Positions 4,325-55,281 of a stretch of 64,000 nucleotides of DNA are shown in pieces. The notes beneath the pieces were generated by a model. That model was not told where the DNA came from. It saw only the letters and a list, made by a program, of their open reading frames with translations, and did not search any database. This stretch comes from Armatimonadota bacterium. GTDB taxonomy: Bacteria; Armatimonadota; Fimbriimonadia; Fimbriimonadales; Fimbriimonadaceae. The position numbers and the translations under genes were made by a program. Position 1 is the stretch's first letter, and each line of letters starts with the position of its first letter. The stretch covers positions 62,001 to 126,000 of the forward strand of contig JADFMN010000005.1 in assembly GCA_022563855.1 (NCBI GenBank), written 5' to 3'.

Positions 4325-5284
4325 TTAGTCCGCTGATTCCTGTTGTGCGGCCGCTGCTTCCATAGCCTGCTGCCGCTCGTACGACAGACCGGCCATGCCC
4401 TTCAGTGCGATGACCCGTGCTTCGAGCGTCGGGTGGGTGCTGAACCAGCTGCGCCTCCGCTGGAGCGGCTTGAGCGGATTGATGATGTACATGTGCTCGG
4501 TCGCGCGAGTGGCGACTTTCAACTTCGTCTTGGGCTTTGAAAGTTTCGTCAGAGCGCTGACTAGACCGTCCGGGTTTCTAGTCAGTTCGACGGCGGTCGC
4601 GTCGGCCATGAACTCGCGCTTGCGACTGACCGCAAGTTTGAGCAGCATGGCGAACAGCGGAGCAAGGATCGCCAACGCGATGCCGATGATCATGAGGACG
4701 CCGCCGCCCGAGTCGCGGCTGCGACGTCCCCCGCCGTACCACATCGAACGAAGGAACATGTGCGAGATCAACGGCACCAAACCTGCGACGATCGCGAGCG
4801 TCGTCATCAGCTTGATGTCGTTGTTGCGGATGTGCGCGACCTCGTGCGCGACCACGCCCTGCAGCTCTTCGCGGTTGAGGATTTCGATCAGCCCCGTGGT
4901 GACGACGACGTAAGCCCGTTCTGGCCTGCGGCCTGTGGCGAAGGCGTTCGGCGATGGGTCGTCGATGATGTACACCTTCGGAGGAGGGATGCCCGCGGCG
5001 ATCGCCATCTCCTCGGTGACGTTCTCGACCACTTGCAGTTCGAGCGCGGTGGCCGTTCGCGCCTTTGCCAGTTTCAGCACGATGTCAGAACCGGACGTCC
5101 AGGCGACGATCGCGACGATGAGACCGAGTACGGCAGCGCCCGCCATGCCGATCAGCCAGTTCTCGGGCGAGTAGTAAAGCAGTACTGCGCCGCCGAGGCC
5201 GGCAAGCACGACGATGACCAGAAAGCAGTAGAAGAGGCTCAGCCTCTTGTTCGCTTTGATCTGCTGGTCGAACGTGCGGCTCAT
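4325..5284 (-). CDS. htpX: HtpX-like M48 membrane metalloprotease
   Basis: Zinc metalloprotease of peptidase family M48B, an inner-membrane quality-control protease that degrades damaged membrane proteins. Two N-terminal transmembrane segments (about 15-37 and 43-63) are followed by the HEVAH zinc site (His147, Glu148, His151) and two more hydrophobic segments near 160-178 and 193-215. The downstream Glu ligand is probably in SRKREFMADATAVEL. The length of 319 is normal for HtpX. The C-terminal A/Q-rich tail is not conserved in the family. Confidence 0.9.
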   Translation of the reverse strand: MSRTFDQQIKANKRLSLFYCFLVIVVLAGLGGAVLLYYSPENWLIGMAGAAVLGLIVAIVAWTSGSDIVLKLAKARTATALELQVVENVTEEMAIAAGIPPPKVYIIDDPSPNAFATGRRPERAYVVVTTGLIEILNREELQGVVAHEVAHIRNNDIKLMTTLAIVAGLVPLISHMFLRSMWYGGGRRSRDSGGGVLMIIGIALAILAPLFAMLLKLAVSRKREFMADATAVELTRNPDGLVSALTKLSKPKTKLKVATRATEHMYIINPLKPLQRRRSWFSTHPTLEARVIALKGMAGLSYERQQAMEAAAAQQESAD

Positions 5285-5323: not shown

Positions 5324-6202
5324 TCAGACGCCGAGCTTGCGCTTGCGCGAGTACATCTCGGCGTCGGCGCGCTCGACGATCATCTCCGCTCCGTCCGAGC
5401 TGTGAGCCATTCCGATAGCGCACGACATCGCAGTTTTTCCGCCTAGGTGCTCGAAGTCGAATCGCAGTCCTTCATCGAGTCTAATCACCGCCTGCTCGCA
5501 CGCTGGCTTCTCGGCGTTGCTGAAGATGATCGCGAACTCGTCGCCACCGATCCTGGCGACGAAGTCCGTGTCGCGAAGAAGGTATTCAAGTTTCTTGGCA
5601 AACGTCGTGAGCGCGACGTCGCCGACTTGATGTCCGTACTGGTCGTTGATCGGCTTGAAGTCGTTCAGGTCGAGCATCAGCAGACCAAACGGCTCGCGCG
5701 CCGCTGACGCAACGCTGTCTTGCAAGACGAGGTCGAAAGCGCGTCGGTTCGGAAGACCGGTGAGCGGATCTTCGCCTGCCAGGCGTGCCATCTTTTGGAT
5801 CTCGCTGACGAGGCGCGACTGCATCGCACGGTTTGAGGTGACGTCCGTCACGACCTGCAACGCGCCCAGGAGCATGCCGCCCTCGTGCCGCAGCGCGCGG
5901 CTGGAGACGACGCCGACGCGGCTGATTCCGTCGATGGTCCTGAACTCCGTCTCGAACATCTCGTCGCGGATCATGTCCACGTCGTGCGCGAGGAAATCGG
6001 CGACGTTTCGTCCGACGATGTCCGTCGGCTTTCCTCCTAGCCACCGCGCCATGTGCCTGTTCACTTCGATGATCAGGCCCGTGGCATCCAGGCGCCAGAC
6101 GCCCTGCCGCATCTGTTCGACCAGGAACTCGTACTCGGATACGATCGGCTGGACGTCAGGTTGTGCCTGAGTCTGAACGCGAAGAGTGTGACGGCCCTTC
6201 AT
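5324..6202 (-). CDS. PAS-GGDEF diguanylate cyclase
   Basis: 292 residues with no transmembrane segment. A PAS sensor domain spans about 20-125 (GVWRLDATGLIIEVN). A linker helix leads to a GGDEF domain (DPLTGLPNRRAFD to the end). The active-site loop GGDEF is at 219-223 and a product-inhibition I-site RDTD at 210-213, exactly five residues upstream. It should make c-di-GMP in response to a cytoplasmic cue. The last helix is shorter than usual (ends MYSRKRKLGV). It follows htpX by a 39-bp gap, on the same strand. Confidence 0.9.
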   Translation of the reverse strand: MKGRHTLRVQTQAQPDVQPIVSEYEFLVEQMRQGVWRLDATGLIIEVNRHMARWLGGKPTDIVGRNVADFLAHDVDMIRDEMFETEFRTIDGISRVGVVSSRALRHEGGMLLGALQVVTDVTSNRAMQSRLVSEIQKMARLAGEDPLTGLPNRRAFDLVLQDSVASAAREPFGLLMLDLNDFKPINDQYGHQVGDVALTTFAKKLEYLLRDTDFVARIGGDEFAIIFSNAEKPACEQAVIRLDEGLRFDFEHLGGKTAMSCAIGMAHSSDGAEMIVERADAEMYSRKRKLGV

Positions 6203-6525
6203 GTACTAGATAATACGTTTGTCGGCTCCCTTCTGATTCGCGAGGCCCTACCGGGTTTTTGCTGACTGGAGGTTTGAGGGTTCGGAAGATCGAGAGTTTG
6301 GGGTTCGGGAGTTCGGGGGTTCGGGAGTTCGGGACTCAGGACTTGAGACTCGGGACTGACTCTCGACCCTCGACTCTCGACCCTGCCAATTGCCAACTGC
6401 AAACTGCAACGCTGACAAACCCTCCGGGCCTGACCGCGGCACACGCTCCATGGCTGCCCCGCACTGCCATCGGGGCAACCATGCCACACGATCTCCTCGT
6501 GCCGCACCGTCCCGTGCGGCCAGAT
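6203..6525. repeat. Gene-free stretch of short tandem repeats and a dispersed repeat
   Basis: No gene is supported. About 6281-6355 holds degenerate GTTCGGGA/GTTCGGGG 8-mers. 6356-6385 holds CTCTCGACC-type repeats. 6386-6410 holds CCAACTGCAAACTG-type heptamers, also seen at 11828-11880 and around 55.3/55.7 kb. 6414-6444 is a dispersed repeat also found at 31978-32009. A hairpin with arms GCCGCAC/GTGCGGC lies near 6502-6520, close to the 3' end of the glycerate kinase gene. Confidence 0.6.
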
Positions 6526-7800
6526 TTATGTATTGATGACCACCAAGCGGAAGTCGTTCACGTTCGTCCTGGTCGGGCCGGTCTTGACGAGCAGGTCGCA
6601 GGCCTTGAAGAAGCTGTGCGTGTCGTTCTGCTCCAAGCATGACTGAAGATCGACGCCTGCGGCCTTTGCCAAGTCCGGAAGATCCGGATCGATGAACGCG
6701 CCCGCCGCGTCCGAGCTGCCGTCGATCCCGTCCGTGTCCGCAGCGATTGCGAACACTCCATCCTGCCCCTCAAGCTCCAGCGCCAGGGAAGCCAGATACT
6801 CGAGGTTGCGCCCTCCGCGGCCACCAGAGTGCCGGACCACTACGGTCGTTTCGCCGCCGGAGAGCAACGCGACTTTCGACCCCGATGTAATGAAATTCTT
6901 CGCGAGAAGCGCGTGCTCGCGGCCCAGCTCTCGCGCATCTGCCGCAAGGTTGTCTCCCAAACGCTGTACTTCGTAGCCCTGCTCCGTCAAGAAAGTCTCC
7001 GCCGCATCCATCGCGGTCTTCGACGATGCGACGATCTTTGCGATGTCCTGTGAAAAGCCGGCATCCCCCGGTTTGGGCGATTCGTTCACCGGATCAGAAA
7101 GCACGCCTAACAACTCATCAAGCGACGGGTATCCGTACCGCTCCAAGACCTCCACCGCCTCGCGCTGGGTCGTCGGGTCGGGGACTGTCGGCCCGGATGC
7201 GATGTCGCACAGGTTGTCGTCTGGCACGTCGGAGATGGCCAGAGTCACGACACGCGCCGGGTGCGCGACCTGCGCGAGCCGCCCGCCCTTGATCGCCGAA
7301 AGGTGCCGCCGAACGGTGTTGATCTCACGGATGTCCGCGCCGCTGCGCATCAGGAAGTCGGTCGCGCTCCGCTTCTGTTCCAAACTCACACCCGCCAAAG
7401 GGGCAACGCACAGCGCAGACCCGCCCCCCGAGGCCAAGAACCACAAAGTTTCATCGGAACGAACAGACCGAGCAAGCTCCAACATCCGACGACCAGCCTC
7501 GACGCCAGCTTCGTCTGGCAAGGGGTGCCCCGCCTCGACCACCTCGATCTCCCCTGCGCTCTCTCCCTCTCGCAATCCGTGCCCGTACCGCGTCACAACG
7601 AGACCGCGCAAAGCGGCCTGCGCTTGCTCGTTGAACGCCATCGCCATCGACGCAGCCGCCTTTCCGGCACCCAAGACCAGCGCATCGTCGGCTGGCAACT
7701 CGCGCAAATGAGGAGCCATGCAATCGCCCGGCGAAGCCGCGTCTACCGCGCATTGGAACGCATCTTTCAGCAACGGCACTTCTGGAACTCGGCTATTCAC
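6526..7800 (-). CDS. Glycerate 2-kinase, MOFRL family
   Basis: 424 residues, the usual length for GckA/TtuD-type enzymes (DUF4147 plus MOFRL domain). It phosphorylates D-glycerate to 2-phosphoglycerate, feeding glyoxylate or serine-cycle carbon into glycolysis. Family signatures are the N-terminal LVLGAGKAAASMA, the glycine-rich FLASGGGSALC, VRRHLSAIKGGRLA, and the C-terminal LLSGGETTV with GGRGGRNLEYL and AADTDGIDGSSDAAGA. The GTG start fits the family N-terminus. Some databases mislabel these proteins as hydroxypyruvate reductase. Confidence 0.88.
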   Translation of the reverse strand: MNSRVPEVPLLKDAFQCAVDAASPGDCMAPHLRELPADDALVLGAGKAAASMAMAFNEQAQAALRGLVVTRYGHGLREGESAGEIEVVEAGHPLPDEAGVEAGRRMLELARSVRSDETLWFLASGGGSALCVAPLAGVSLEQKRSATDFLMRSGADIREINTVRRHLSAIKGGRLAQVAHPARVVTLAISDVPDDNLCDIASGPTVPDPTTQREAVEVLERYGYPSLDELLGVLSDPVNESPKPGDAGFSQDIAKIVASSKTAMDAAETFLTEQGYEVQRLGDNLAADARELGREHALLAKNFITSGSKVALLSGGETTVVVRHSGGRGGRNLEYLASLALELEGQDGVFAIAADTDGIDGSSDAAGAFIDPDLPDLAKAAGVDLQSCLEQNDTHSFFKACDLLVKTGPTRTNVNDFRLVVINT

Positions 7801-7836
7801 GAGAATCCAATTATCACATGCGACGAAATTCGGAGC

Positions 7837-7881
7837 GCGGACTCTCCAGTCCGCATCCCGGCCTGTGGACTCTTAGTCCAC
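7837..7881. repeat. Pair of REP-like hairpins
   Basis: Two adjacent short palindromes: 7837-7854 (GCGGACT arm, 4-nt loop) and 7865-7881 (GTGGACT arm, 3-nt loop). The arms differ at two positions but stay complementary. They lie between the divergent glycerate kinase and Asp-box genes. Confidence 0.55.
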
Positions 7882-7897
7882 TGCGTTCGCACGGCTG

Positions 7898-7945
7898 CTA
7901 AAGAATGCTCGTGGCTTCCCTTGCTTCGTGGATACTGTATGCACG
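7898..7945 (-). other. Possible degenerate copy of the metG 3' end
   Basis: On the minus strand this reads HEAREATSIL then TAG. The end of metG reads HEAPEGTSVH then TAG. About 27 of 34 bases around the stop match metG-tail copy A at 11880. Unlike the other copies it has non-synonymous changes, so it may be an old copy or a chance match. Confidence 0.35.
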
Positions 7946-8041
7946 TCCCACGCCGAGCCCGGCAATCTTACCGGGGTTGCCCGTGCGAATCGGTCTTTCG
8001 ACAGCTCTGCGGGGCGTGATTCGCGTTCGGGCTGATGTAGA

Positions 8042-9913
8042 ATGGACAGCACAATGGTTATTGCCGCGCTTTTGAGTGTTCACCTCGCCGCCGGATTCGC
8101 AAACGGGGAGCAGGCCGCGCGCGGCCAAGGGCGTTTTCAGGGCGAGCCGCCCCGCCTTGAGACCTACGGCGACCCGTACATGAGCCCGCCGCTCTTTGCC
8201 ACGTCCCCCGGAATGATGTTCACCATCAACGGCTTCATCAGCCAGCAGGTGAACGTGGACCAGTTCGGAAACAACATCTTGGGCGACGCGGCCAACGAGC
8301 CGTCCATCGGCATCAGTCCGGCGAATCCGGACGCCATCGTAATCGGCTGGCGGCAGTTCGACAACGTCGCTTCAAACTTCCGTCAGGCAGGTTGGGGCTA
8401 CAGCCACAACGCCGGTGCGACCTGGACGTTCCCGGGCGTTTTGGATCCAGGCGTGTTTCACAGCGACCCAGTGCTGGATTCCGACACCGAAGGCAACATC
8501 TACTACAACAGCCTGTTCGTCGTCGGCAACGACTGGCACTGCGACACTTATATCTCCCCCGACGGGGGTGTGACCTGGACCGGCCCGCACTTCAGTTTCG
8601 GTGGAGACAAAGCTTGGTTCACGGTCGACAAGACGGGGAGCGTCGGACACGGCCGCTTGTATGCCGCTTGGAGCACCGCTGGCAACAACTTCTTTCCCAA
8701 TCAGTTCTCGCGCTCGATCGACGGGGGATTCAACTGGATGGACCCGATGGAGATTCAGCCGCGTCGACAGGTGTGGGGGACGTTGACGGTAGACCCGGCC
8801 GGCGACCTTTACGTCTCCGGCCAGCGGAGTAGCACCATCTACGTTTCGAAGTCGACAGACGCAAAGTTCGGGGCGGCGACGCCGAGTTTCGATTTCACGG
8901 TCACCGTGCCCCTTGGGGGGTCTTTCGCGTCCCACGGCGGCCCCAACCCCGGCGGGCTGTTGGGCCAAGTGTGGGTAGCGGCCGACAACTCGAACGGCCC
9001 GACGAGCGGCAACGTTTACCTGCTCTCGTCTATCAATCCGCCTGGGGGCGACCCGCTGGACGTTTTCTTCGCTCGTAGCGAAGACGGAGGGCTGAGCTGG
9101 AGCGCGCCGGTTCGCGTCAACGACGATCCCGTCGGCACGAACGCATGGCAGTGGTTCGGCACGATGTCGGTGGCGCCGAACGGACGCATCGACGCCATCT
9201 GGAACGATACGCGCAACAGCGGACTGAGCAATATCTCCGAAACCTTCTACTCCTACTCTCTCGACGGCGGGCGAACGTGGTCGAAGAACGTAGCGATGAC
9301 GCCTGCTTGGAACAGTCATATCGGATGGCCGAACCAGAACAAGATCGGCGACTATTACGACATGGTTTCGGACGACACCGGGTCCGGGTTGGCGTACTCC
9401 GCGACGTTCAACGGCGAGCAGGACGTCTACTACATGCGGATCGAGCCGGAGCCGCCGATCATGCCCGAGTCCTTTTGGCTGCTGCGCGGTCGGCTCCTGT
9501 CGGGCGGCCTGCCGGACCTGTTCGATAGCGACGACAACTCCATCGTCGTTCGGCCGTGGATTACGCTTTCGAATACTGAAGCGCCCGTGCAGATCATCCT
9601 TGATGGGACGGCCACGACCGATACGCCGGCCGAACTCGGCTTCCTGGTCGAGAGCCGTGTTTCGATTTCAAACCTCACCCAGAGAATCGAGCTGTTCAAT
9701 CACGTTGCGGGAGCCTGGGAAGAGGTGGACTTTCGTGTCGCGGCGACCGACGACTCGATCGTTCACGTGCTGATCTCCGACAACCCGGGGCGTTTCATCA
9801 CTCCGAATGCTCTGCAGATGATGGCGAAGATAAGTTTCAAGGCGGCGGGCCCGAATGTGAGCTTTCCGTGGACGGCGTCAATCGACCGGGCGAACTGGAC
9901 GATCCAGCCGTGA
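8042..9913 (+). CDS. Secreted sialidase-like Asp-box protein
   Basis: 623 residues beginning with a signal peptide (VIAALLSVHLAAGFANG). The body is a beta-propeller of the exo-sialidase/BNR class with five Asp-boxes: SHNAGATW, SPDGGVTW, SIDGGFNW, SEDGGLSW and SLDGGRTW. A separate C-terminal beta domain starts at about residue 475. Asp-boxes mark the fold, not sialidase chemistry; the Arg triad was not identified, so the substrate is unknown. It is exported, without a PEP-CTERM tail. It lies between two putative metG-tail copies (7898 and 11880). Confidence 0.8.
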   Translation: MDSTMVIAALLSVHLAAGFANGEQAARGQGRFQGEPPRLETYGDPYMSPPLFATSPGMMFTINGFISQQVNVDQFGNNILGDAANEPSIGISPANPDAIVIGWRQFDNVASNFRQAGWGYSHNAGATWTFPGVLDPGVFHSDPVLDSDTEGNIYYNSLFVVGNDWHCDTYISPDGGVTWTGPHFSFGGDKAWFTVDKTGSVGHGRLYAAWSTAGNNFFPNQFSRSIDGGFNWMDPMEIQPRRQVWGTLTVDPAGDLYVSGQRSSTIYVSKSTDAKFGAATPSFDFTVTVPLGGSFASHGGPNPGGLLGQVWVAADNSNGPTSGNVYLLSSINPPGGDPLDVFFARSEDGGLSWSAPVRVNDDPVGTNAWQWFGTMSVAPNGRIDAIWNDTRNSGLSNISETFYSYSLDGGRTWSKNVAMTPAWNSHIGWPNQNKIGDYYDMVSDDTGSGLAYSATFNGEQDVYYMRIEPEPPIMPESFWLLRGRLLSGGLPDLFDSDDNSIVVRPWITLSNTEAPVQIILDGTATTDTPAELGFLVESRVSISNLTQRIELFNHVAGAWEEVDFRVAATDDSIVHVLISDNPGRFITPNALQMMAKISFKAAGPNVSFPWTASIDRANWTIQP

Positions 9914-10247
9914 CGGAGCCGGGCTTTTGTTGTTCGAGAAGCAGGTGTTTGCTGGGGACGCGAACATAGTAACGTCACATCGGTTCCTGGGCCCGTCATC
10001 CTGAGCTCCGTCGAAGGACGACCGTTGCGCACGTGTGCCACGGTCATGCCCGAAGGGGCTGTCTGTGCGAATCCCTCCCCAGACCCGAGGGGTGATTGCG
10101 AGCTGCAGACTGTGGTGGTCGGGGGAGGTTAGGAGGGGGTCGTGTATTGCACCATGTGATGTAGCCGCACGCTTCAGCTTGCGCCGCGCGTCATAGGGTC
10201 CACGATTCCGGCGTATACTTACAATGATCGCCGGGAAAAGCTCACCG
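9914..10247. other. Gene-free stretch with a dispersed repeat
   Basis: No coding region is supported. 9989-10021 contains GTCATCCTGAGC...GTCGAAGGA, a repeat type found between genes in many bacteria. A G-rich tract lies at 10110-10140. TATACT at 10214-10219 may be a -10 box for the next gene. Confidence 0.45.
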
Positions 10248-10787
10248 ATGAATAGCCGTATGCAAAGACGAAGAAGGCTGAAGTACATCTGCATCGTCGT
10301 AGCAGTCGGGATCGCCGCGATCGCGACAATCGGACTGAACGACAGGCGGCCCCAAGAGGAGAAGCTGCTGCATAAAGCAATAATGATGGCTGCATTCAGT
10401 GAGGAGAGGAATGCAGTGTTCATCAAGTTTAGCGATGGGGAACCAAGCATCGTCGTGATTCCGCGAGAGAGTCGGCGTGCCCGTCGTCATGGATACATGA
10501 CAACTGCCTCATCAAAGCCAGGGATAATTCATCGAATCCGAATCTCAAAGCCTGCGATGTCAGCTAAATTGAAGTCAGAGTTGTCGCAAAGAACTACGAG
10601 GCCCATAGAGTCAGCTATCGCAGCTCTTGAGCAGGGCTACGAAGTCAGGGTCTGGTCGTTTCGGGCCCCTTATGAGGTATTCATTAGTCTCGACGTTGTG
10701 CTTCCACCGGGAACGATGGTAATCCTCGGAGGTAGTGATATGATCGTTTTCGCTGGAAAGGAGTTCAGAGCCGTCGGCGGTCGCTAA
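10248..10787 (+). CDS. Hypothetical membrane-anchored protein
   Basis: 179 residues: an Arg-rich N-terminus, one transmembrane segment at about 13-31 (YICIVVAVGIAAIATIGL), then a basic extracytoplasmic domain with a hydrophobic C-terminal half. No family is recognised. An in-frame ATG at 10224 is possible, but it sits only 5 nt after a TATACT -10 candidate, so 10248 is preferred. Codon use is less GC-biased than in the neighbours, and the gene lies among lipoproteins bracketed by metG-tail copies, so recent acquisition is plausible. Confidence 0.5.
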   Translation: MNSRMQRRRRLKYICIVVAVGIAAIATIGLNDRRPQEEKLLHKAIMMAAFSEERNAVFIKFSDGEPSIVVIPRESRRARRHGYMTTASSKPGIIHRIRISKPAMSAKLKSELSQRTTRPIESAIAALEQGYEVRVWSFRAPYEVFISLDVVLPPGTMVILGGSDMIVFAGKEFRAVGGR

Positions 10788-10886
10788 GGTCACCGCACGA
10801 ATCAGCATTCCCTCGCACCTCGCACCTCGCCGTTGCCCTCTCCGAAGCGATCTCATTGTAAAGGTATCATCAATCCTATAGCCCTC

Positions 10887-11306
10887 ATGAAACGGTGCTG
10901 TCTTCTGTACTGCTTACTTGTGGCGTCCTTCCTTCTAGCATGTTCTCCGGACAATAACTCACTGTCCCCATTGGCCACGGAGGTTGTTTCTGTGCCGATC
11001 CTTAATATGGCAGGATTCGAATGGCATTCCGTCGGCGAAACGAATCGCTACGGCGAAGTGTGGGGATATGAGGGAGGCGCCTGCGACATACCGCTATCGA
11101 TGGATGGCACAGTCGAGGAGCTTCAACGGACGCTGACTCCAGAGGACGGCTGGATTCTGGAGGAAGTAGACGAACGTCTCGTTACGCTTAGGAAACACCT
11201 GGGCGATGAAAACGTCCTCATCTACGTCTCTCCTGGTCGCACGGATACCGATTCTCAGACTATCAGTACTAACGTGACTGTTCAAAGTGGCGTTTGGAGA
11301 GAGTAG
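10887..11306 (+). CDS. Hypothetical small lipoprotein
   Basis: 139 residues. The N-terminus is a lipoprotein signal (KRCCLLYCLLVASFLLAC) with lipobox LLAC and Cys at about 19. The mature part is acidic, with no recognised domain. The frame is open upstream to 10833, but the ATG at 10887 gives the lipoprotein signal. Base composition is lower in GC than the surrounding housekeeping genes. Confidence 0.6.
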   Translation: MKRCCLLYCLLVASFLLACSPDNNSLSPLATEVVSVPILNMAGFEWHSVGETNRYGEVWGYEGGACDIPLSMDGTVEELQRTLTPEDGWILEEVDERLVTLRKHLGDENVLIYVSPGRTDTDSQTISTNVTVQSGVWRE

Positions 11307-11464
11307 CATTCACCTTTAAGCGAGTCTCCGACCCCCGAACTTGGCCTAGGCCCTCGACCGCGCATCAAGAAAAGCCCGACACAGCACGTGGACCGCCCGT
11401 GCCGCCCTGCCTCGGGATGGGGCGGCACAGTCATTCCGTCCTTCACTGCCCGCGTCCCGAGGCT

Positions 11465-11677
11465 TCATCGCGGTCGAGTCGTGCAAAGCCTCAGGACGTA
11501 GCCAGTGGTAGGTGAAAGCAATCCCTTAGCCCGTCCTGAGGTATGAATGCTGGCGAGCGTCTTCTCCACCCAGGCGCTCTGCTCCTCGTTCAGTTCGGCG
11601 GAGTAGGTGTAGCGGGGCGGGTCTTGCGCGACCGGTGAGGCGGCGATCAGTGACAGGAGACAAAGCGAGACAATCAT
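11465..11677 (-). pseudogene. 5' remnant of a secreted protein, possibly GH3
   Basis: A 70-codon frame starts with a good signal peptide (MIVSLCLLSLIAASPVAQ). It continues AELNEEQSAWVEKTLASI, which resembles the start of secreted family 3 glycoside hydrolases (consensus W-V-x-x-T-L-x-x-M-T-L-E-E-K). The resemblance ends at about residue 45, followed by unrelated sequence and a stop. It is probably the broken end of a gene lost by deletion or insertion. The GH3 link is weak. Confidence 0.35.
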
Positions 11678-11827
11678 GGTCGGCTGTTAGGAGACTTGGC
11701 GTTGCTCGGGCGCCCGGGGGTTCGGCTCTTATAGGTCGTATTAGTCGTATATGCCCGATCTGATCTGAGGCACCCCGAACCTCGCCCCTCGACCCAGGAA
11801 CAACGAACGGCGCGGCAGCCCGTGAGT

Positions 11828-11880
11828 CGACTGCAAACTGCCCACTGCCCACTGCCAACTGCCAACTGCCAACTGCCAAC
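11828..11880. repeat. AACTGCC heptamer tract
   Basis: Near-perfect heptamers (AACTGCC/CACTGCC) run up to the stop codon of metG-tail copy A at 11880. Similar tracts occur at 6386-6410, 55253-55281 and 55722-55745. 11307-11464 and 11678-11827 hold no gene I can support; the latter includes GTCGTATTAGTCGTAT and CCCCGAACC-type short repeats. Confidence 0.7.
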
Positions 11881-11921
11881 TAGTGAACGCTCGTGCCTTC
11901 CGGCGCTTCGTGCTCCGGCTC
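11880..11921 (-). other. metG 3'-end copy A
   Basis: Read on the minus strand, this encodes EPEHEAPEGTSVH plus TAG, identical in protein to the end of intact metG at 16505-16546. Five bases differ, all at third codon positions. No other part of metG is attached. It lies 121 bp before napA, in the same orientation as metG. Confidence 0.85.
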
Positions 11922-12042
11922 CGGGAAGATCGGTCGACAGCCGATGACGGCTCCCCAAATGGAACGGGCTATCGGCCGCAGAGGCATCGAAAGCGCAGGC
12001 TCGCATTTCAGTGTTGGAAGGTAGACTCAATCAGGTCGCATC

Positions 12043-14331
12043 GTGATGACAAGTGAGGACGATTCCCGAAGCGAGAACGGATGGACTCGTCGCGAGTTTG
12101 CTCAGATACTCGCTGGGCTGGGAGTAGCGACCGGGACCGCATTTGGCGGATGGGGAATCCTGGAACTCGTCCGGCCAAAAGGTAGAGCGACGTCCTGGCG
12201 AAAGTCCGTCTGCAGGTTTTGCGGAGTTGGCTGCGGCGTACGCCTTGGATTGAACAACGGTGCAATCACGGAGGTGCGCGGGGATGAGGAAGCGCACAAC
12301 AAGGGTGTCATCTGCATAAAGGGCGCCATGCTCGGGGCGCTACCGAGCCTTACCGGCCGGGCTCTAAAGCCGAAGATTCGCAGAGCCGGGAAACTCGTGG
12401 AAGCGACCTGGGAGGAGGCGATGTCGCTCGTCGCAGATCGGTTTTCCGACAGCATACGGGAGTTCGGTCCAGACTCGGTCGCATTCTACGGTTCCGGTCA
12501 ACTCTACACCGAGGAGACCTACACGGCGAACAAGCTGTTCAAGGCAGGGATCGGCACAAACAACGTTGACGGCAATCCGCGGCTTTGCATGGCGTCGGCG
12601 GCAGTCGGGTACGTTCAAACATTCGGAAAGGATGAGCCTCCAGGGGCGTTGGAGGACATTGACCACGCGCACTGCTTCTTTATCATCGGCGCTAATCCGT
12701 ATGAGTGCCACCCGTCCATTTTCGAGCGCATTATGCAGCGCAAGCGCTCGCATCCGGACACAGTTCTCATATGTGTCGATCCACGGAGAACTTCTACCGC
12801 GGACCGATGTGATCTGCACCTGCCGCTGAATCCTGGAACAGACCTCTTGCTGCTGAACGCAATGATGCATGTTATCCTTGAGGATCGGCTGTACGACCGC
12901 GACTTCATTGATGAGCACGTTCGGTTTAGCGACGGAGAGGACACGGTTGACTTTCAAGCGCTCGAGAACTTTCTGCGGGACTACAGGCCTGAAGATATCA
13001 GTGCGCGAGTCGGCTTGTCGGCAGAGGTCATCAGGCGAACGGCCCACCTGTTCGCCCGATCGAAGGGAACGGTCTCGCTCTGGACGATGGGCATCAATCA
13101 GCGGGTTCAGGGAGTCCACCTGAATAACACGATCAATTCGCTCCACCTTGTTACAGGACAGATCTGCCGCCCGGGGGCGACTCCCTTATCGCTCACGGGG
13201 CAGGCGAATGCGTGCGGAGGCGTTAGAGATACCGGTGGTTTGGCGCACCTGCTGCCTGCCGGGAGGATCGTTGCAAACGAAAAGCACCGGCATGAGGTCG
13301 AAGAGTTGTGGGGAGTGCCCCGCGGAACGATCTCGCCGACGCCGGGCCTCGACGCTGTAAACCTCTTCCGGGCCATGGAGGACGGTCGGGTGCGCGCGAC
13401 CCTCGTTATGTGCACCAATCCCGCCCAATCGCTCCCCGCTGCGGGCCGCTACAGAAAGGCGATGGAGCGGTGCTTCTTGGTCGTAGCGGAAGCGTTCGAG
13501 GACTCGGAGACAGCTCGCTTTGCCGACGTTCTTCTTCCGGCTGCTCTTTGGGTGGAAAAGGAGGGCGTGTTTGGGCAAACGGACCGTCGTTATCAGCTCG
13601 TGGAAAAAGTGCTCGATCCTCCGGGCGAAGCGCGGTCTGACCTGGAGATCCTGGTTGACTTAGCGATCCGGCTTCGTCACGGGGACCTGATCAAGGCAAG
13701 GACTCCGGAGTCCGTTTGGGACGAATGGCGGAAGTTCTCCGAGACGAGCGCGTACAACTTCAAGGGAATCACATATGATCGGTTGCAGAAGAATCGTGGC
13801 CTCCAGTGGCCTTGTCCGAACGAATCTCATCCGGGAACTGTGCGACGCTACTTGGGAGGCGATGATCCGCTGGTAAGCAGCGGAAAGAAGATCGAGTTCT
13901 ACGGCCATCCCGACGGACGGGCGGTAGTTTACTTGCGGCGATATTTGGAATCTCCGGAGCAGGTCAGCGACGAGTTTCCGTTCATACTAACGACAGGGCG
14001 CGTTCTCGAGCAGTGGCATACGGCCACCATTACCGGCCGCATTCCCGAACTTCAGAACGCCGCCGGTCCTGCTCGCTTCGAGTTCAACGACCAGGATGCT
14101 CAACGTATGGATATTCAGGATGGCACTCGGCTCGAGGTCACGAGCCGGTACGGAACCGTGGCAGGGGCCGCCGTAGTGACCGGTCGCCCTCGAAAGGGAA
14201 CTATTTTCGCCGCGTTCTATGACACCAAGCTGCTGGTGAACATCGCCGTGGCGGATAACTACGACGCCGTTTCCAAGCAGCCTGAGTACAAGATCACCGC
14301 AGTGTCAGTGCGGAAGATGGGAGGTCAATAG
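12043..14331 (+). CDS. napA: Periplasmic nitrate reductase catalytic subunit
   Basis: Mo-bis-MGD oxidoreductase that reduces nitrate to nitrite in the periplasm. It has a Tat signal (TRREF at 15-19 and a hydrophobic stretch), a [4Fe-4S] motif C57-x2-C60-x3-C64...C91, and the Nap-type Mo ligand Cys182 in GNPRLCMASAA. Further Nap signatures are PLSLTGQANACGG, WVEKEGVFGQTDRR and LEQWHTATITGRIPEL. These exclude respiratory formate dehydrogenase. The GTG start at 12043 is followed by an in-frame ATG at 12046. napC starts 3 nt after the stop. No napB, napD, napG or napH is adjacent, so electrons may pass directly from NapC. The operon sits between two metG-tail copies. Confidence 0.88.
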   Translation: MMTSEDDSRSENGWTRREFAQILAGLGVATGTAFGGWGILELVRPKGRATSWRKSVCRFCGVGCGVRLGLNNGAITEVRGDEEAHNKGVICIKGAMLGALPSLTGRALKPKIRRAGKLVEATWEEAMSLVADRFSDSIREFGPDSVAFYGSGQLYTEETYTANKLFKAGIGTNNVDGNPRLCMASAAVGYVQTFGKDEPPGALEDIDHAHCFFIIGANPYECHPSIFERIMQRKRSHPDTVLICVDPRRTSTADRCDLHLPLNPGTDLLLLNAMMHVILEDRLYDRDFIDEHVRFSDGEDTVDFQALENFLRDYRPEDISARVGLSAEVIRRTAHLFARSKGTVSLWTMGINQRVQGVHLNNTINSLHLVTGQICRPGATPLSLTGQANACGGVRDTGGLAHLLPAGRIVANEKHRHEVEELWGVPRGTISPTPGLDAVNLFRAMEDGRVRATLVMCTNPAQSLPAAGRYRKAMERCFLVVAEAFEDSETARFADVLLPAALWVEKEGVFGQTDRRYQLVEKVLDPPGEARSDLEILVDLAIRLRHGDLIKARTPESVWDEWRKFSETSAYNFKGITYDRLQKNRGLQWPCPNESHPGTVRRYLGGDDPLVSSGKKIEFYGHPDGRAVVYLRRYLESPEQVSDEFPFILTTGRVLEQWHTATITGRIPELQNAAGPARFEFNDQDAQRMDIQDGTRLEVTSRYGTVAGAAVVTGRPRKGTIFAAFYDTKLLVNIAVADNYDAVSKQPEYKITAVSVRKMGGQ

Positions 14332-14334
14332 GCT

Positions 14335-15027
14335 ATGGACTGGCTTCTCGATTTGCCCACGCTCGTGAAAGTCCTGGGAGTCACGATTTGCGTCATTGGA
14401 ATCGCTCTGTGTTATAGGCTAATAAGAGTGAGACGTGATTCTCTCTCTCGCGACAAGATGGTGAACTTGCGCATAGCGAGGATTTCGGGGCTGACGTTCA
14501 ACAAGATGTTGGCTTTCCTAACGCTCATTGTATTTTCTGGCTTGTCCGTGTCGATCGCCAACTATCACGTAGTCAGCGGAGTCAAGGAGGTGCGTTCTTG
14601 CAACTCGTGCCACGTAATGCGTCCAATGGTAAACGATATGTTTGACCCGTCGAGCCAAACGCTCGCCGCACGCCACTTCTCGAACAAGTGGATCCCACGG
14701 CAACAGTGCTATACGTGCCACACCGACTACGGACTCTCCGGGAATCTCAAGGCGAAGATGGACGGATACAGACACCTGGCTCGTTACACGACGGGCACAT
14801 TCACAGAGCCGATCGCATCACCGTCTGCTTATAACAACGACAACTGCATGCAATGTCATTCCGGTACGCGAAAGTTCGAGGTGGTCTCCAACCACATTGC
14901 AATTCGCAAGCCGCTTTCGGATAGTTCGGTCAGTTGTCTCAACTGCCACGGAAGCGCGCATCCTACGCGCGCTCAGCGCACACCGGGGCATCCCGACTAC
15001 AGCGACCTGATGAAACGGAGGGACTGA
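14335..15027 (+). CDS. napC: NapC/NirT-type tetrahaem cytochrome c
   Basis: 230 residues. The N-terminus is hydrophobic (about 8-29), with a membrane anchor at 57-75. The periplasmic domain carries four CxxCH haem sites: CNSCH (89-93), CYTCH, CMQCH and CLNCH. NapC/NrfH proteins oxidise quinol and pass electrons to periplasmic reductases, here most simply NapA. The extra upstream helix is longer than in classical NapC. It overlaps the next small gene by one base (TGATG), so translation is coupled. Confidence 0.85.
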   Translation: MDWLLDLPTLVKVLGVTICVIGIALCYRLIRVRRDSLSRDKMVNLRIARISGLTFNKMLAFLTLIVFSGLSVSIANYHVVSGVKEVRSCNSCHVMRPMVNDMFDPSSQTLAARHFSNKWIPRQQCYTCHTDYGLSGNLKAKMDGYRHLARYTTGTFTEPIASPSAYNNDNCMQCHSGTRKFEVVSNHIAIRKPLSDSSVSCLNCHGSAHPTRAQRTPGHPDYSDLMKRRD

Positions 15028-15212
15028 TGGGGATAAGAGTTGAAGCGTGGGCGGCGATCATTGCCTTCACCACGACGGCCGCCTTCATCGTCTGGCCTAA
15101 CCCGTACCTAATGGCGCTCTTCGTTTTTTTCGCCCAGCCTCTCTTTGCGATTGTAGCATTCCTTTACTTGCGTCGCGTGTTCAAAGAGTTGCGCGAGAAG
15201 GACGTCCTTTGA
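15027..15212 (+). CDS. Small membrane protein of the nap operon
   Basis: 61 residues starting at an ATG that shares one base with the napC stop. Two hydrophobic segments (about 6-22 and 27-48) are followed by a charged tail (RRVFKELREKDVL). It may help anchor or assemble the complex, in the position of NapE-like small proteins, but homology to NapE is not evident. Confidence 0.6.
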   Translation: MGIRVEAWAAIIAFTTTAAFIVWPNPYLMALFVFFAQPLFAIVAFLYLRRVFKELREKDVL

Positions 15213-15281
15213 CACCGTTAAAAGCGGGACCAAGCTCACCGCGATCTTGCGAAAGCTCCGCCCTTGCACGTCGCCTGGCGA

Positions 15282-15332
15282 CTAATGAACGCTCGTGCCT
15301 TCCAAGGCTTCGTGCTCCGGCTCGATCAGGAT
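15282..15332 (-). other. metG 3'-end copy B
   Basis: On the minus strand this encodes ILIEPEHEALEGTSVH plus TAG, against ILLEPEHEAPEGTSVH in metG. In the last 13 codons six changes are synonymous and one (Pro to Leu) is not. It lies between the nap operon and the TolB-like gene. The rest of 15213-15389 shows nothing else recognisable. Confidence 0.85.
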
Positions 15333-15389
15333 CGACAGTTTCGACTGCCGCGATCCTTTTTTCTGATCGGTATCTCCACGATTGTCGCT

Positions 15390-16478
15390 TCAGTTACCGA
15401 CCGAGATCCAAGAGGGGGCGCCAGCCGAGAGTCCGTGACTCGTTAGCTGTTTTACGTCCGAGCCGTCTGCATTCATGACGTAGATCTCAGACCCTCCTTC
15501 TGGCCCGCCCTGGGCGAAAAGAATCTTCTCTTTGTCTGGCGATAGCGACACCGCGAAGACGGAATTGTTGAACGTCGCAATGACCGTCGTCCTCTGAGTT
15601 GCGATGTCAAAGGAATTGATGCTGCCTCGCCCGTTCACGCTTGAGGACAGGAGGAGCTGCAGGCTCTCATCCGTCCAGTCTGCGAATCCATTGCTCTTTG
15701 CAGCAGTTGTCAATCTGGCTTTGTCAGCACCAAGCTGATCCGTAACGTACACTTCGTAACCCTCTTCCGAATTTCTGACGAACGCCATCTGCATTCCGTC
15801 TTTGGACACGATCGGCCCGGTATAGAAATAGTCCGTGTCATCGAGACGCCTCTTGTCCGTGCCGTCCGCGTTCATAGTCCAGGTCCAACCCTTCCCACCC
15901 TTTACGCTACTAAACCACATTCTCTTTGAATCCGGGAACCACCGAATCGCGTCATCAGGACCACGCCAATCGGTCAGCCTTTTCTGCTCCCCTCCTGTTG
16001 GCGCAACGACATAAATTTCTCGGTTGCCATCTCTGAAACTTACAAACGCGATGTTCTTTCCGTCTGGAGACCATGAGTGATTAGAGTCCCATGCAGGATT
16101 GTTTGTGAGATTGACTACGTCCGATCCGTCTGTGTTCATAACGAAGACATCGGCACTCCCGTCGCGTTTCGAAACAAACGCGATCTTTCCGCTGGCAGAC
16201 GACCATCGAGGCATCGTGTCGTCGGCGGCGTTGTTTGTCAGGTTTCTCTGGTTCGCACCCGATTCATCCATCACATAGATCTCGTCATTGCCGTCAATCC
16301 AAGTTATGAATATGATGAGTTGCGTCGTGCTCACAGCGTCGTTTGCACGCACTTGACTCACCGATTCGACTGTGGATGCTCGCTTGCATCCACCCATAGT
16401 TGACGCAAGCGAAACGACTGCTACGACCAGCGCAACGACTCCCACCCAACGCTCCTTCTTGCCATGCTGCTCAATCAT
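15390..16478 (-). CDS. TolB-like beta-propeller lipoprotein
   Basis: 362 residues. A lipoprotein signal ends at lipobox MGGC (Cys31). The body is a PD40/TolB-type propeller with repeated units such as EIYVMDESGANQRNLTNN, SWSPDGKNIAFVS and EIYVMNADGSDVKQLT. TolB relatives work in envelope protein complexes, but this one lacks the TolB N-terminal domain, so only a binding role is inferred. It lies 26 bp downstream of metG on the same strand, between metG and tail copy B, so it is probably cargo inserted at the metG 3' end. Confidence 0.8.
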   Translation of the reverse strand: MIEQHGKKERWVGVVALVVAVVSLASTMGGCKRASTVESVSQVRANDAVSTTQLIIFITWIDGNDEIYVMDESGANQRNLTNNAADDTMPRWSSASGKIAFVSKRDGSADVFVMNTDGSDVVNLTNNPAWDSNHSWSPDGKNIAFVSFRDGNREIYVVAPTGGEQKRLTDWRGPDDAIRWFPDSKRMWFSSVKGGKGWTWTMNADGTDKRRLDDTDYFYTGPIVSKDGMQMAFVRNSEEGYEVYVTDQLGADKARLTTAAKSNGFADWTDESLQLLLSSSVNGRGSINSFDIATQRTTVIATFNNSVFAVSLSPDKEKILFAQGGPEGGSEIYVMNADGSDVKQLTSHGLSAGAPSWISVGN

Positions 16479-16504
16479 GGTGTCTTGTTCTACCGCGCGA
16501 TGGT

Positions 16505-18424
16505 CTAGTGGACGCTCGTGCCCTCGGGCGCCTCGTGCTCTGGCTCTAGCAGGATCGCTGAGCCATCGGTGTCGTCGGCGGCGAGGATCATGCCTTGGCT
16601 CTCCAGCCCCATCATCTTGCGCGGCTTGAGGTTCGCGACCACTACGACCTGGCGTCCGATGAGGTCTTCGGCGGAGTACGTGCCTTTAATGCCCGCGATG
16701 ATCTGGCGCATTTCGTCACCGATCTTGACCTGTATCTTCATGAGCTTCTTGCTCTCCTCGACCGGCTCGGCCTCGATGATCCGGGCGACCTGCAGCTTCA
16801 CCTTCATGAAGTCAGCGAACTCGATCTCGTCGGGCTGTTCTATAGTCGTTGTCTCTTTCACTTTCTTTTCCTTCTTCTCTTTCGGAGCGTCTTCTTTCTT
16901 CTTTTCAAGACGAGGGAACATCGGCACGGGCTGCTCGAGTTTCGTCCCTTCTGGCAGTGATTCCTCCCGGCCGATCTCATCCCATGAAGTCAGCGGAGGC
17001 AAGCCGAGTTGCGCGGCGAACGCGTCCGCCGCAGATGGGATGAACGGACGGATCAAACCCTCCGACGCGCGCAGCAGCATCAGCATCGTCCGGATCACCT
17101 GCGCCAGCGCCGGGTCGCCGGATTTCGCAAGCGCCCACGGCGCTTTGTCGTCTACGTACTTGTTCAGGAACCGCGCCGCGTCGATCGACGCACCAATCGC
17201 ATCCTGAATCCGGTGCGTCTCCATCGCCGTTTCGAACTTTTTCTTCGTATCGGATATAGCCGCGATCGCGTCTGCATCGCACGAACCGCCCGGCACGACG
17301 CCGCCGACAAACTTGTGCGCCATCGTCAGCGATCTGTTCAGAGCGTTGCCAAGATCGTTCGCCAAGTCCGCGTTGTAAAGACGGTCGATCTCCGTGTAAG
17401 TGAAGTTCGTGTCGTTGTCATAAGGCAGCGACTTCGCGAGCGCATAACGCACCGCATCAACAGCCAAACCGGAAGAACAACCCGCGTCCTCAAAATGAGA
17501 GATCAGCTCAGAAGACGACAGCACGTTCCCCTTCGACTTGCTCATCTTCGCTTCGTTGAACGTGAACCACCCGTGCGCGATCACGGTCTTCGGCAACGGC
17601 AGGTCCACCGCCATCAGCATCGCCGGCCACATCGTCGCGTGGAACCGCGTGTAGATCTCCTTCGCCATCCAGTGGACGTCCGCCGGCCACAGGTCCTCCC
17701 AGCCGTCCTCGGGCCAGCCGGTCGCGGCCAAGTAATTAATAACAGCGTCGAACCACACGTAAAGAACCCGTTTCTCGTCGCCCGGCACGGGGATGCCCCA
17801 ACCGGGGTTCGAGCGAGAGATGCAGATGTCGCGTAGGCCGGATTTGACGAACGATAAGACCTCGTTGCGACGGCCCGGCGGCATCAGGAAGTTCGGGTCG
17901 CCCTCGATCTTCTCCAGCAGCCGGTCCTCGAAAGCCGAGAGCCGGAAGAACCAGTTCTCCTCTTTCACCCTGCGGACCTCGTTGCCGTCGGGGCTCTTGC
18001 CGTCGACCAGGTCCGACTCCTTCACGAACGTCTCGGCGCTGACGTCGTACCACCCCTCATAGTTGTCGAGGTAGACGTAGTCGTTCGCTTTTAGCCTGTT
18101 GAAGAACTCGGTGACAGCCTCCTTGTGCCGCTCGCTGGTCGTGCGGAAGAACGCGTCGTACTCGATGTTCAAACTGTCGAACGCCTCGATGAAGCTCTGG
18201 CTGATCCGGTCGACGAACGCCTGGGGGGTCTCACCGGCCTCCTCGGCCGCCTCCATCACCTTCAACCCGTTCTCGTCGGTCCCCGTGAGGAAGAAAACGT
18301 CCTCCCCGCGCATTCTGTGCCACCTCTTCGTGACGTCGCAGACGAGCGTAGTCAACGCATGCCCGACGTGGGGCACCGCGTTGACGTAATAGATCGGCGT
18401 GGTGACGTAGTACCGCTTGGCCAT
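16505..18424 (-). CDS. metG: Methionyl-tRNA synthetase
   Basis: 639 residues. Class I aminoacyl-tRNA synthetase charging tRNA-Met. The HIGH-type motif is PHVGH (residues 18-22) and KMSKS occurs in NEAKMSKSKGN. The CP region lacks paired zinc-knuckle cysteines, so it is the zinc-free type. A Lys/Glu-rich linker (KKKEDAPKEKKEKKVK) leads to a C-terminal OB-fold tRNA-binding domain (EIEFADFMKVKLQVARI). The last 13 residues, EPEHEAPEGTSVH, are the sequence repeated downstream at 15282 and 11880. Confidence 0.95.
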   Translation of the reverse strand: MAKRYYVTTPIYYVNAVPHVGHALTTLVCDVTKRWHRMRGEDVFFLTGTDENGLKVMEAAEEAGETPQAFVDRISQSFIEAFDSLNIEYDAFFRTTSERHKEAVTEFFNRLKANDYVYLDNYEGWYDVSAETFVKESDLVDGKSPDGNEVRRVKEENWFFRLSAFEDRLLEKIEGDPNFLMPPGRRNEVLSFVKSGLRDICISRSNPGWGIPVPGDEKRVLYVWFDAVINYLAATGWPEDGWEDLWPADVHWMAKEIYTRFHATMWPAMLMAVDLPLPKTVIAHGWFTFNEAKMSKSKGNVLSSSELISHFEDAGCSSGLAVDAVRYALAKSLPYDNDTNFTYTEIDRLYNADLANDLGNALNRSLTMAHKFVGGVVPGGSCDADAIAAISDTKKKFETAMETHRIQDAIGASIDAARFLNKYVDDKAPWALAKSGDPALAQVIRTMLMLLRASEGLIRPFIPSAADAFAAQLGLPPLTSWDEIGREESLPEGTKLEQPVPMFPRLEKKKEDAPKEKKEKKVKETTTIEQPDEIEFADFMKVKLQVARIIEAEPVEESKKLMKIQVKIGDEMRQIIAGIKGTYSAEDLIGRQVVVVANLKPRKMMGLESQGMILAADDTDGSAILLEPEHEAPEGTSVH

Positions 18425-22579: not shown

Positions 22580-23578
22580 TCACACTTCGGTCGTTCGTCC
22601 AGCGACCAGGGGCTCGCTTCCTTCGCCCTGTAGTTGCGCTGGAACATCACGAACCGGGACTTGGAATTGCAAGGGCGGGCCGGGTTGGATATCCTTGGCC
22701 ACGTCGGCCAGCGCCCGGTCGAAGTGTAAGTAGGTCGCTCTGTTTGCCCTTCCACGACCGATGTCGCGCTTCCACTTCGTCCCCATCGCCGGATTGCAGT
22801 TGATTTCCCAAACCTGCACTCGCCCACGATAGAACGAATAGTCGACGCGCGCCCAGTCGTGGCCGGCGACCTCAAAGGCCTGCTCTAGCTCCTGACGGTG
22901 GGGAAAGTCGCGTACGTATGGCAGTTCATCCTTGCCAACGGCTCTTCTCCTTGATGATCTTCTCTTGAGCATCCAATGCTGCCCTGCCATCAAGTGCTTC
23001 CCGAAGACGTGAGGCCCAACCTTCTGCGCGCCGTACTTGCGGAAAAGCCGATCGCCGTCGCGGTAGTCGATGTACTCGGAGACGAGGTAATCGTCTTTGT
23101 GGTTTTCTGCGGTTAGCAATTCTGCAATTGCGTCATCCAATTCTGCCTGTGTGTGCACGATCGGTGAGAGGTTGGCGCGATGCAGGTTCTCGTCTCGGAC
23201 AAACGCTGGGAAGCGCACGGGCGCAGGCAGGTCCCTCACGCGGTGGACGTTGAAGTCGTTGATCCCGAGTTCGTGTAGCTTTCGCAGGAGTGCGTAACGA
23301 CCTAACACTCGCGATGGGTTATTGAGGACGGCGAATGCGCTCGGATCGCTCTTGAGTTTTTCGTACAGCCACTGAGCCTTGTCGAGTTGCGGACGGCTCA
23401 TGCAATCCGTGTTCGTGATGAGGTAAATGCCTCGCGGCCACTCACTCTCTGACGCTGCGGCGTCGATCGTCAGCACTCGGACTCGACTCCATACCTCGCG
23501 AGAGTAGCGGGCAGGGTAATCCACAAGCGCGCCCACTCCGCGCTGAGTCGTTATATGAATGATCGGGCACCGGTCCAT
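22580..23578 (-). CDS. ATP-grasp-like protein of unknown substrate
   Basis: 332 residues, no signal peptide. The N-terminal ~90 residues resemble a pre-ATP-grasp domain. The middle and C-terminus have ATP-grasp features: a strand with paired acids (LVSEYIDY), a phosphate-loop-like basic stretch, and the metal site ARVDYSFYRGRVQVWEINCNP. Such enzymes join a carboxylate to an amine or thiol through an acylphosphate. No biosynthetic neighbours indicate the substrate. The tail after ~300 is Pro/Gln-rich and unlikely to be structured. Confidence 0.65.
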   Translation of the reverse strand: MDRCPIIHITTQRGVGALVDYPARYSREVWSRVRVLTIDAAASESEWPRGIYLITNTDCMSRPQLDKAQWLYEKLKSDPSAFAVLNNPSRVLGRYALLRKLHELGINDFNVHRVRDLPAPVRFPAFVRDENLHRANLSPIVHTQAELDDAIAELLTAENHKDDYLVSEYIDYRDGDRLFRKYGAQKVGPHVFGKHLMAGQHWMLKRRSSRRRAVGKDELPYVRDFPHRQELEQAFEVAGHDWARVDYSFYRGRVQVWEINCNPAMGTKWKRDIGRGRANRATYLHFDRALADVAKDIQPGPPLQFQVPVRDVPAQLQGEGSEPLVAGRTTEV

Positions 23579-23791
23579 GCTCGTGGTTTTTCTGTTTCGG
23601 GCGCCATCCGGTTGACTTCCGACCTGAACGCATCAGGCCAGAACCTGTCGGCAACTTCCAGATGAGTCCCTGGAACGACGCAACGGTCGATCATTGTATC
23701 AGATCGCTACGAGCGGGCAATCTCGAACTCGCCGACGGATGAGCGTCTAGCAGTTGCTGGCCGCATCTAACTGGTATCTTCAAATCCACGG

Positions 23792-44932: not shown

Positions 44933-45805
44933 GTGATAACCAGGGTCGTTAGCGTCCTTATCGTAAGCGTGATTGCGCTTCTCACACCTGCCGCCCTAGC
45001 AGAACAGGATCGTCGAGAGGAGATGACCGCGAAGCAGTTCCTCGAGTGGAGCATGGATCAGCACGCGAAGCTCAAGACCTATCAGGCAATGGTTCTTTGG
45101 GACATGGGGAAAGGAGATCTCAGGACTAGGCTTGTCCTTATCGAGGGCCCGGACAAGTACGCCGTGACTTCCAGCAATCGTGGCTACACTCAAGTTTCCG
45201 TGTGCGACGGCACGACGCTTCTTGAATATGACAGCGAGGACGCTGAAGCCCTTGAGTACAGGGCCACTAGCCACATTGGAACGTCTCCCGGCATGCAGAT
45301 GAACCACCCCCATTTTTGCGGAAGCCTTTTGTACAAGTTCTTCCTCGGTTCAGACCACCTTGACCAACTCGCCATTCTGGACAGGCAGGAGATCGAGTAC
45401 GGTCCTCGTGTGACGCTTGCCGACGGTCGCACGCTGCAAAGCGTCAAGTTTTACGGGGCCTACCTATATGGCCACGTTGTCGCAGACATCAATGTATCGA
45501 CCGGACTCGTCGAAAGACTCAAATACGACAGTGAGCCGGTCATGCAGGTGCTGAAAGACATGGGGCCGGAAGGGGTAAGTAAGTTCCTGCAAGACGTGCT
45601 GGAAAGCATCGGCGAGGACATCGAAGTTCCCGAGTTTCCCGAAATTGGAACTAGATGGACGACGGAGCACATATCAGTGGTCGCGACGGACGCCCCGCTG
45701 TCAAGCGACATCTTTAGTACGGCAACTCCAAATGGCATCGAGACACGGAGAATGACGTCCGCCTGGCCACGCTGGTCGCCGCAGGGGCGGAAGACGCCGC
45801 GATAG
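44933..45805 (+). CDS. Secreted LolA/DUF2092-like protein
   Basis: 290 residues. The start is preceded by AAAGGAG, 9 nt upstream. Signal peptide VSVLIVSVIALLTPAALAEQ. The mature part begins with helix FLEWSMDQHAKLKTYQAMVLWDM and continues as a beta-rich half-barrel of the LolA/DUF2092 type, which binds lipoproteins or lipids in the periplasm; the match is by pattern only. Its TAG stop overlaps the first bases of the duplicated pnp end, so the natural C-terminus may have been cut. It lies between pnp and its tail copy. Confidence 0.65.
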   Translation: MITRVVSVLIVSVIALLTPAALAEQDRREEMTAKQFLEWSMDQHAKLKTYQAMVLWDMGKGDLRTRLVLIEGPDKYAVTSSNRGYTQVSVCDGTTLLEYDSEDAEALEYRATSHIGTSPGMQMNHPHFCGSLLYKFFLGSDHLDQLAILDRQEIEYGPRVTLADGRTLQSVKFYGAYLYGHVVADINVSTGLVERLKYDSEPVMQVLKDMGPEGVSKFLQDVLESIGEDIEVPEFPEIGTRWTTEHISVVATDAPLSSDIFSTATPNGIETRRMTSAWPRWSPQGRKTPR

Positions 45806-45848
45806 AGACGGCGAAGACGTCAACGCCAGGTTCAGACCCCGGCGCTAG
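45804..45848 (+). other. Duplicated 3' end of pnp
   Basis: 45 nt encoding RDGEDVNARFRPRR plus stop, the same as the pnp end at 44787-44831. The first 32 nt are identical. The three codons that differ (Arg, Pro and the stop TAA/TAG) are all synonymous. No other part of pnp is attached. Confidence 0.9.
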
Positions 45849-55254: not shown

Positions 55255-55281
55255 TTGGCAGTTGGCAGAGGGCAGTTAGCA
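55253..55281. repeat. TTGGCAG heptamers at the left edge of the S23-type gene
   Basis: TTGGCAG units directly follow the stop of the Asp-box gene. The right edge (55722-55745) carries the complementary-type ACTGCAA units in inverted orientation. The same repeat class occurs at 6386-6410 and 11828-11880. Confidence 0.65.

Follow-up and report, generated by a model that had tools for sequence, protein, structure and literature searches.

Displaced ends of metG, pnp and other conserved genes beyond inserted genes in an Armatimonadota genome

In a genome of the phylum Armatimonadota (G000), the short end of a conserved gene typically recurs in frame, downstream and on the same strand, past an insert that usually holds a gene. 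We consider it probable, at about 0.7, that these structures arose when genes were acquired through recombination anchored in conserved gene ends, each displaced end (tail) being the fossil of one event. A stack of such tails follows metG in a 64-kb window, the whole stretch of DNA analysed (64,000 nucleotides); coordinates without a prefix refer to this window, and C1, C3 and C5 are contigs of G000.

Repeated metG ends and the genes between them

The live metG gene (methionine--tRNA ligase, 639 aa) occupies 16505–18424 on the minus strand and was assigned from a score above the cut-off of the NCBIfam equivalog PRK12267 and from its relatives. Comparison of the sequences places its present 3′ end, tail C (EPEHEAPEGTSVH*), at 16505–16546. 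Two displaced ends lie downstream on the same strand: tail B (EPEHEALEGTSVH*, 15282–15323), where the similarity runs on to 15334, and tail A (EPEHEAPEGTSVH*, 11880–11921). The original prediction had placed the 14-codon metG tail at exactly these three sites, in one orientation and downstream of the gene, and its account of the differences was equally accurate. Tail A differs from metG by five bases, all synonymous, leaving the peptide identical, and tail B by six synonymous codons and one replacement (CCC to TTG, P to L). Mismatches at the first, second and third codon positions number 0/0/5 between A and C, 1/1/7 between B and C, and 1/1/2 between A and B, and the three tails differ pairwise at 4–9 of 42 bases.

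A search of the genome for further tails, as had been suggested, returned only these three sites at E≤0.001; a degenerate fourth copy, tail D (HEAREATSIL*), was found at 7898–7930 on the minus strand. Tail D matches tail A at 26 of 33 bases, with no score above 24 in 200 shuffles of the 64-kb window searched on both strands, and at up to 3 mismatches its motif matches solely D, A, B and two metG-type ends among 291 Armatimonadota genomes. The mismatches of D are spread over codon positions (2/3/2 in 33 nt), unlike those of A against metG, and D is therefore an older, decayed non-coding remnant, the oldest of the four. The same 291 genomes yielded no further element carrying the tail, and the metG tail pattern had zero matches in IMG/VR. 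In 19 relatives, no second tail copy was found within 6–20 kb around metG. The tails mark at least three tail-punctuated insertions at metG, the newest closest to the gene. The earlier reading of successive insertions, each with a replacement tail, is supported, although their number had been put at two.

Two further features lie beside these tails. A terminator-like hairpin with a T-run for the nap-like genes (15328–15362, z = -3.1) overlaps the upstream edge of tail B. Short intergenic repeats of the (CTGCCAA)n type occur at 11830–11879, 6383–6418, 55250–55285 and 55717–55754, and like tracts are found in other genomes of the family.

Compared with relatives, the metG insert spans ~6205 to 16504 and so extends beyond 11880. 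From 6205 onward it contains a glycerate kinase/MOFRL-like gene (6526–7800, minus strand, G+C 0.62), tail D, a BNR-repeat protein gene (8042–9913, plus strand, by Pfam) with small genes, tail A, the nap-like genes, tail B, a TolB-like (PD40) gene and the current tail. The TolB-like gene (15390–16478, minus strand, by Pfam) is the youngest insert, with a G+C of 0.53 against 0.605 for the genome. The nap-like genes, all on the plus strand, encode a NapA-like molybdoenzyme (12043–14331) and an NrfH/NapC-like cytochrome (14335–15027), both assigned by profile comparison, and a 61-aa membrane protein (15027–15212). These three genes had been called a complete nap operon; since the NapA-like enzyme scores 568 bits against an NCBIfam curated cut-off of 904, that term is an overcall and we avoid it.

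G000 belongs in or near the Fimbriimonadaceae, its closest named metG loci being from Armatimonadetes/Fimbriimonadaceae MAGs. Gene order in relatives identifies the ancestral neighbours of metG as a GGDEF gene (5324–6202) and htpX (4325–5284), both on the minus strand. In G001, a member of the same genus, metG is followed directly by orthologues of the two without an insert, and G032 has the same metG-GGDEF-htpX order, likewise uninterrupted. A GGDEF gene alone adjoins metG in G010 and G003, and htpX alone in G031. The empty site expected from the original prediction therefore exists in G001 and G032, but the join is not at 11880, to the left of tail A: metG abuts the GGDEF gene, which corresponds to ~6205. 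The glycerate-kinase gene was not found beside metG in relatives, and no tail copy lies beyond it, between D and the GGDEF gene.

The nap-like cassette (11994–15269) shares 91.5% DNA identity with contig C31 of G050, a genome from another family of the order whose MetG is only ~52% identical; the cassette was therefore transferred recently. The match stops ~60–70 bp from tail A and 13 bp from tail B. A hairpin-like block, R (70% identity over 61 bp), lies to the left of the cassette here (11927–11987) and to its right in G050 (C31:22334–22394), in the same orientation; this swap of position may reflect circular permutation and is a weak hint of a circle. In G050 the cassette begins ~420 bp after a tRNA-Ser gene (C31:18465–18556), with no repeat of the tRNA end detected at its flanks. 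The BNR gene has an orthologue in G001 with 67% amino-acid identity, on another contig and away from metG. A DNA search of the phylum recovered no close copy of the TolB or BNR cassettes with the same borders. A dispersed, hairpin-like repeat (78%) is present at 11404–11547 and C3:355902–356045, the C3 copy adjoining a match to 10202–10294.

Displaced ends at pnp and across the genome

A second gene with a displaced tail in the window is pnp (42561–44831, plus strand), whose own tail is at 44769–44831. It is followed on the same strand by a gene for a 290-aa protein with no Pfam match (44933–45805; insert G+C 0.546), and then by the displaced pnp tail (GGRRRDRDGEDVNARFRPRR*, 45786–45848, plus strand), in frame and with only synonymous differences over the last 15 codons. 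None of 13 relatives was found to have the 290-aa gene downstream of pnp.

We scanned 1.27 Mb of G000, ~40% of the genome, for copies of gene ends, leaving out paralogues, tandem ones among them, and two repeat clusters, as these gave many matches. The clusters (C1 297–302 kb and 383–394 kb) hold near-identical short repeats, one reading TRPEGEGLS*, and are probably REP-like or paralogue arrays. Within the window, two tandem paralogous genes lie at 57855–60125 (756 aa) and 60277–62565 (762 aa). The scan returned 13 non-paralogous tail copies, all on the same strand as the gene and all downstream of it; no copy was seen upstream, nor any on the other strand. Of these copies, 2–3 are either weak or situated in a repeat region, and the one in the repeat region, C5:118963, is doubtful. 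Gene names read from sequence include topA (C3:61965–64577), whose copy at 59179–59220 is separated from it by an 805-aa kinase/HD-like gene, also named in this way, as well as mutS (C3:275136–277622, copy at 274772) and a cyanophycinase gene (C5:221800–223233) with a copy at 223442 and a second, detected by BLASTN, at 226069. Further copies belong to alr (C3:21335–22423, copy at 23560–23590), an arnT-like gene (C5:133651–135120, copy at 135761–135837) and comEA (C5:136637–137275, copy at 135832–135861). There is one mirror case, at a gene start: the first 12 codons of a gene read from its sequence as an M42 peptidase (C3:323157–324218) are repeated upstream, at 325247–325282, with 3 synonymous differences and a 269-aa gene without a Pfam match in between.

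The G+C content of nine of the 10 insert segments measured is 0.48–0.59, compared with 0.605 ± 0.019 for the genome in 2-kb windows; the exception is the glycerate-kinase segment. In two control genomes of the same family (0.4 Mb each, 0.8 Mb in total) no comparable case was found, where ~8 would be expected at the rate of G000.

Two lines of evidence bear on what the copies were before the insertions. A codon-position test was restricted to BLASTN matches, which are blind to reading frame, as a codon-aware scan favours synonymous changes. In this set (n = 12 copies, including three weak ones at C1 188774, 122584 and 371788 and two metG copies that are not independent of each other), mismatches at the three codon positions number 21/13/53 (p = 1.7e-7). 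Their concentration at third positions indicates that both copies evolved as real gene ends, and with the unchanged peptide of tail A it supports the earlier proposal that each displaced tail had evolved at the end of a functional gene. The similarity does not continue past the stop codon, identity beyond 10 nt being 27%, a random level. Paired tails are orthologous ends from diverged strains or species. The other line comes from arnT and comEA. In relatives these two are convergent neighbours whose ends overlap or abut in G015 and G088 and lie close together in G001. In G000, two inserts part each of these genes from its old tail, and the displaced tails sit centrally with their stops adjacent (C5:135835–135840). 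Lying stop to stop, the old tails keep the ancestral junction, which identifies the outer copy as the old end of the resident gene.

Proposed mechanism and rival explanations

Under the reading that we prefer, donor DNA from another strain or species would carry a gene, Y, and next to it the final tens of bases of a homologue of the resident gene, X, and would recombine with X at the common end. The resident would thereby gain the donor tail and Y, while its own tail would stay with the old neighbour, now downstream of Y, giving the order X body, new tail, Y, old tail, old neighbour. On the simplest route, the ends of the donor fragment would be joined into a circle, which would then integrate by a single crossover within the short common end (Campbell integration). 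An equivalent product would come from one-sided strand invasion or copying that finishes in an illegitimate join a little inside the end of the resident gene. As no donor genome with an X–Y junction was found, circularisation and the crossover point are our inference; so are entry by DNA uptake and the identity of the donors. The shared ends, at ~24–75 bp, are short for homologous recombination, and we must assume that longer repeats were later recombined out. Tails outnumber heads ~12 to 1, an excess that the mechanism as stated does not require. There is experimental precedent in Escherichia coli: with homology at one end, 56 of 60 recombinants yielded a PCR product that is diagnostic for a duplicated homologous end (14 were sequenced) and 4 arose by homology-facilitated illegitimate recombination (HFIR), and the authors put the end duplications down to a single crossover of a re-circularised molecule (PMC3240628).

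The original prediction likened the metG 3′ end to an attachment site and took mobilisation in trans or an unknown mechanism to be implied; on an attachment-site reading, the inserts would be integrase-less elements mobilised in trans, in SCC-like or CIME-like stacks. Such stacks are formed by SCC at rlmH. Comparable ones are known at other gene ends from the CIME literature, and a tandem stack at a single gene end, replacement tails and similar repeat boundaries would all fit. Nevertheless, the same structure recurs at genes that are related neither to one another nor in their tail sequences, and in one case at a gene start, and the sites have no recombination core in common; this variety of gene ends excludes a site-specific recombinase as the common cause. 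Moreover, the two tails of a pair diverge by up to ~20 percent, unlike attL/attR cores, and no viral contig carried the tail. The original prediction saw no integrase in either insert, and none was recognised by Pfam on the main insert genes annotated. The tyrosine-recombinase matches in G000 lie elsewhere, the nearest ~22 kb from D. The pnp, topA, alr and arnT/comEA cases largely refute site-specific integration, and we hold it to be very improbable. Long target-site duplication, in which insertion by a transposition-like or staggered-break event would have doubled the gene end, with divergence of the copies afterwards, is also improbable. It would account for the direct repeats of tens of bp that flank each insert and has a described counterpart in the insertion with long target duplication of Helicobacter pylori. 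The outer copy should then decay freely, yet 53 of the 87 mismatches fall at third positions and tail A retains the metG peptide despite 5 synonymous differences; in addition, similarity ends with the stop codon and not at a random position, and neither the metG nor the pnp inserts showed a recognisable transposase.

HFIR or one-sided break repair, in which a donor strand pairs in X and its far end is joined illegitimately within the end of the resident X without a circle, is a sub-variant of our preferred reading and differs only in the last step. It yields the same final order, is a known process of competent bacteria and has been put forward to explain the displacement of T6SS effectors (PMC5361080); it is possible, if on balance doubtful. 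Its published products generally have recipient deletions of insert-like size and not duplications (PMC3240628); here the resident end is kept, as at arnT/comEA, without such a deletion. The position of block R on opposite sides of the nap-like cassette in G000 and G050 is a weak hint in favour of a circle instead. Because Ku was not found in G000, any end joining would be of another kind. Ku was also considered as the cause of the pattern and rejected, being present in both control genomes. That the assembly joined mixed strains of a metagenome bin is hardly credible: G000 is probably metagenome-assembled and has 3.3% contamination, but the joins between Y and the displaced tail hold no common sequence able to mislead an assembler, and the pattern is directional, codon-structured and keeps the ancestral arnT-comEA junction.

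Relation to known systems and significance

Several known systems resemble the arrangement in part. Insertion with long target duplication in H. pylori (Nobusato et al. 2000, Gene 259:99), as it is presented in PMC1643837, likewise involves gene-sized insertions with long direct target repeats, seen by comparing related genomes, and both such repeats and an empty site in relatives are found here. In that account the events are tied mainly to restriction-modification genes, none of which was recognised in the inserts annotated here; in G000, furthermore, the repeats are diverged coding ends and the insertions are stacked. Closer in geometry is the C-terminal displacement of rhs genes, in which an incoming 3′ end shifts the resident end downstream, leaving strings of dissociated ends, and a single crossover with a small circle has been proposed, as here (Jackson et al. 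2009, PMC2935791). The resident 3′ end lies downstream of the newcomer on the same strand in 13 of 13 of our cases. The rhs genes, however, are a toxin family with variable tips on a conserved core, whereas the targets here are housekeeping genes, metG, pnp, topA and alr among them, whose tails are conserved, and the novelty is in the cargo.

Displacement of T6SS effectors by HFIR also proceeds by successive insertions anchored in a conserved part, with older 3′ material moved downstream and the newest beside the anchor, but it is confined to toxin-immunity loci (Kirchberger et al. 2017, PMC5361080). The lacZ-end duplications of E. coli show that one-end homology gives a duplicated gene end; unlike ours, they come from a laboratory construct and are identical copies of 109–950 bp (PMC3240628). 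CIME accretion and SCC composite islands share stacked, integrase-less segments punctuated by gene-end copies, yet depend on one recombinase site, as opposed to the ends of many unrelated genes. Compared with insertion with long target duplication and rhs displacement, the present events are set apart by lying at housekeeping genes and by being stacked.

It has long been asked how, in the absence of mobile elements, single genes come to lodge between conserved ones. From displaced tails one can read the precise junction, the order in which inserts arrived (at least three layers at metG) and the divergence of the donor; the metG case would otherwise be mistaken for an integration hotspot. It is conceivable, though unlikely, that this lineage has a dedicated, unusually active and sequence-independent system by which gene-sized DNA is made circular and placed at the edges of conserved genes, as opposed to just retaining rare transformation accidents; such a capture route would explain why G000 has ~ten events per megabase when two genomes of the same family show none. 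The events can be recognised by a simple scan, which looks past a novel gene for the last codons of the preceding gene, repeated in frame. They can thus be counted in any genome, and one can ask why they are frequent in one lineage and missing from its relatives.
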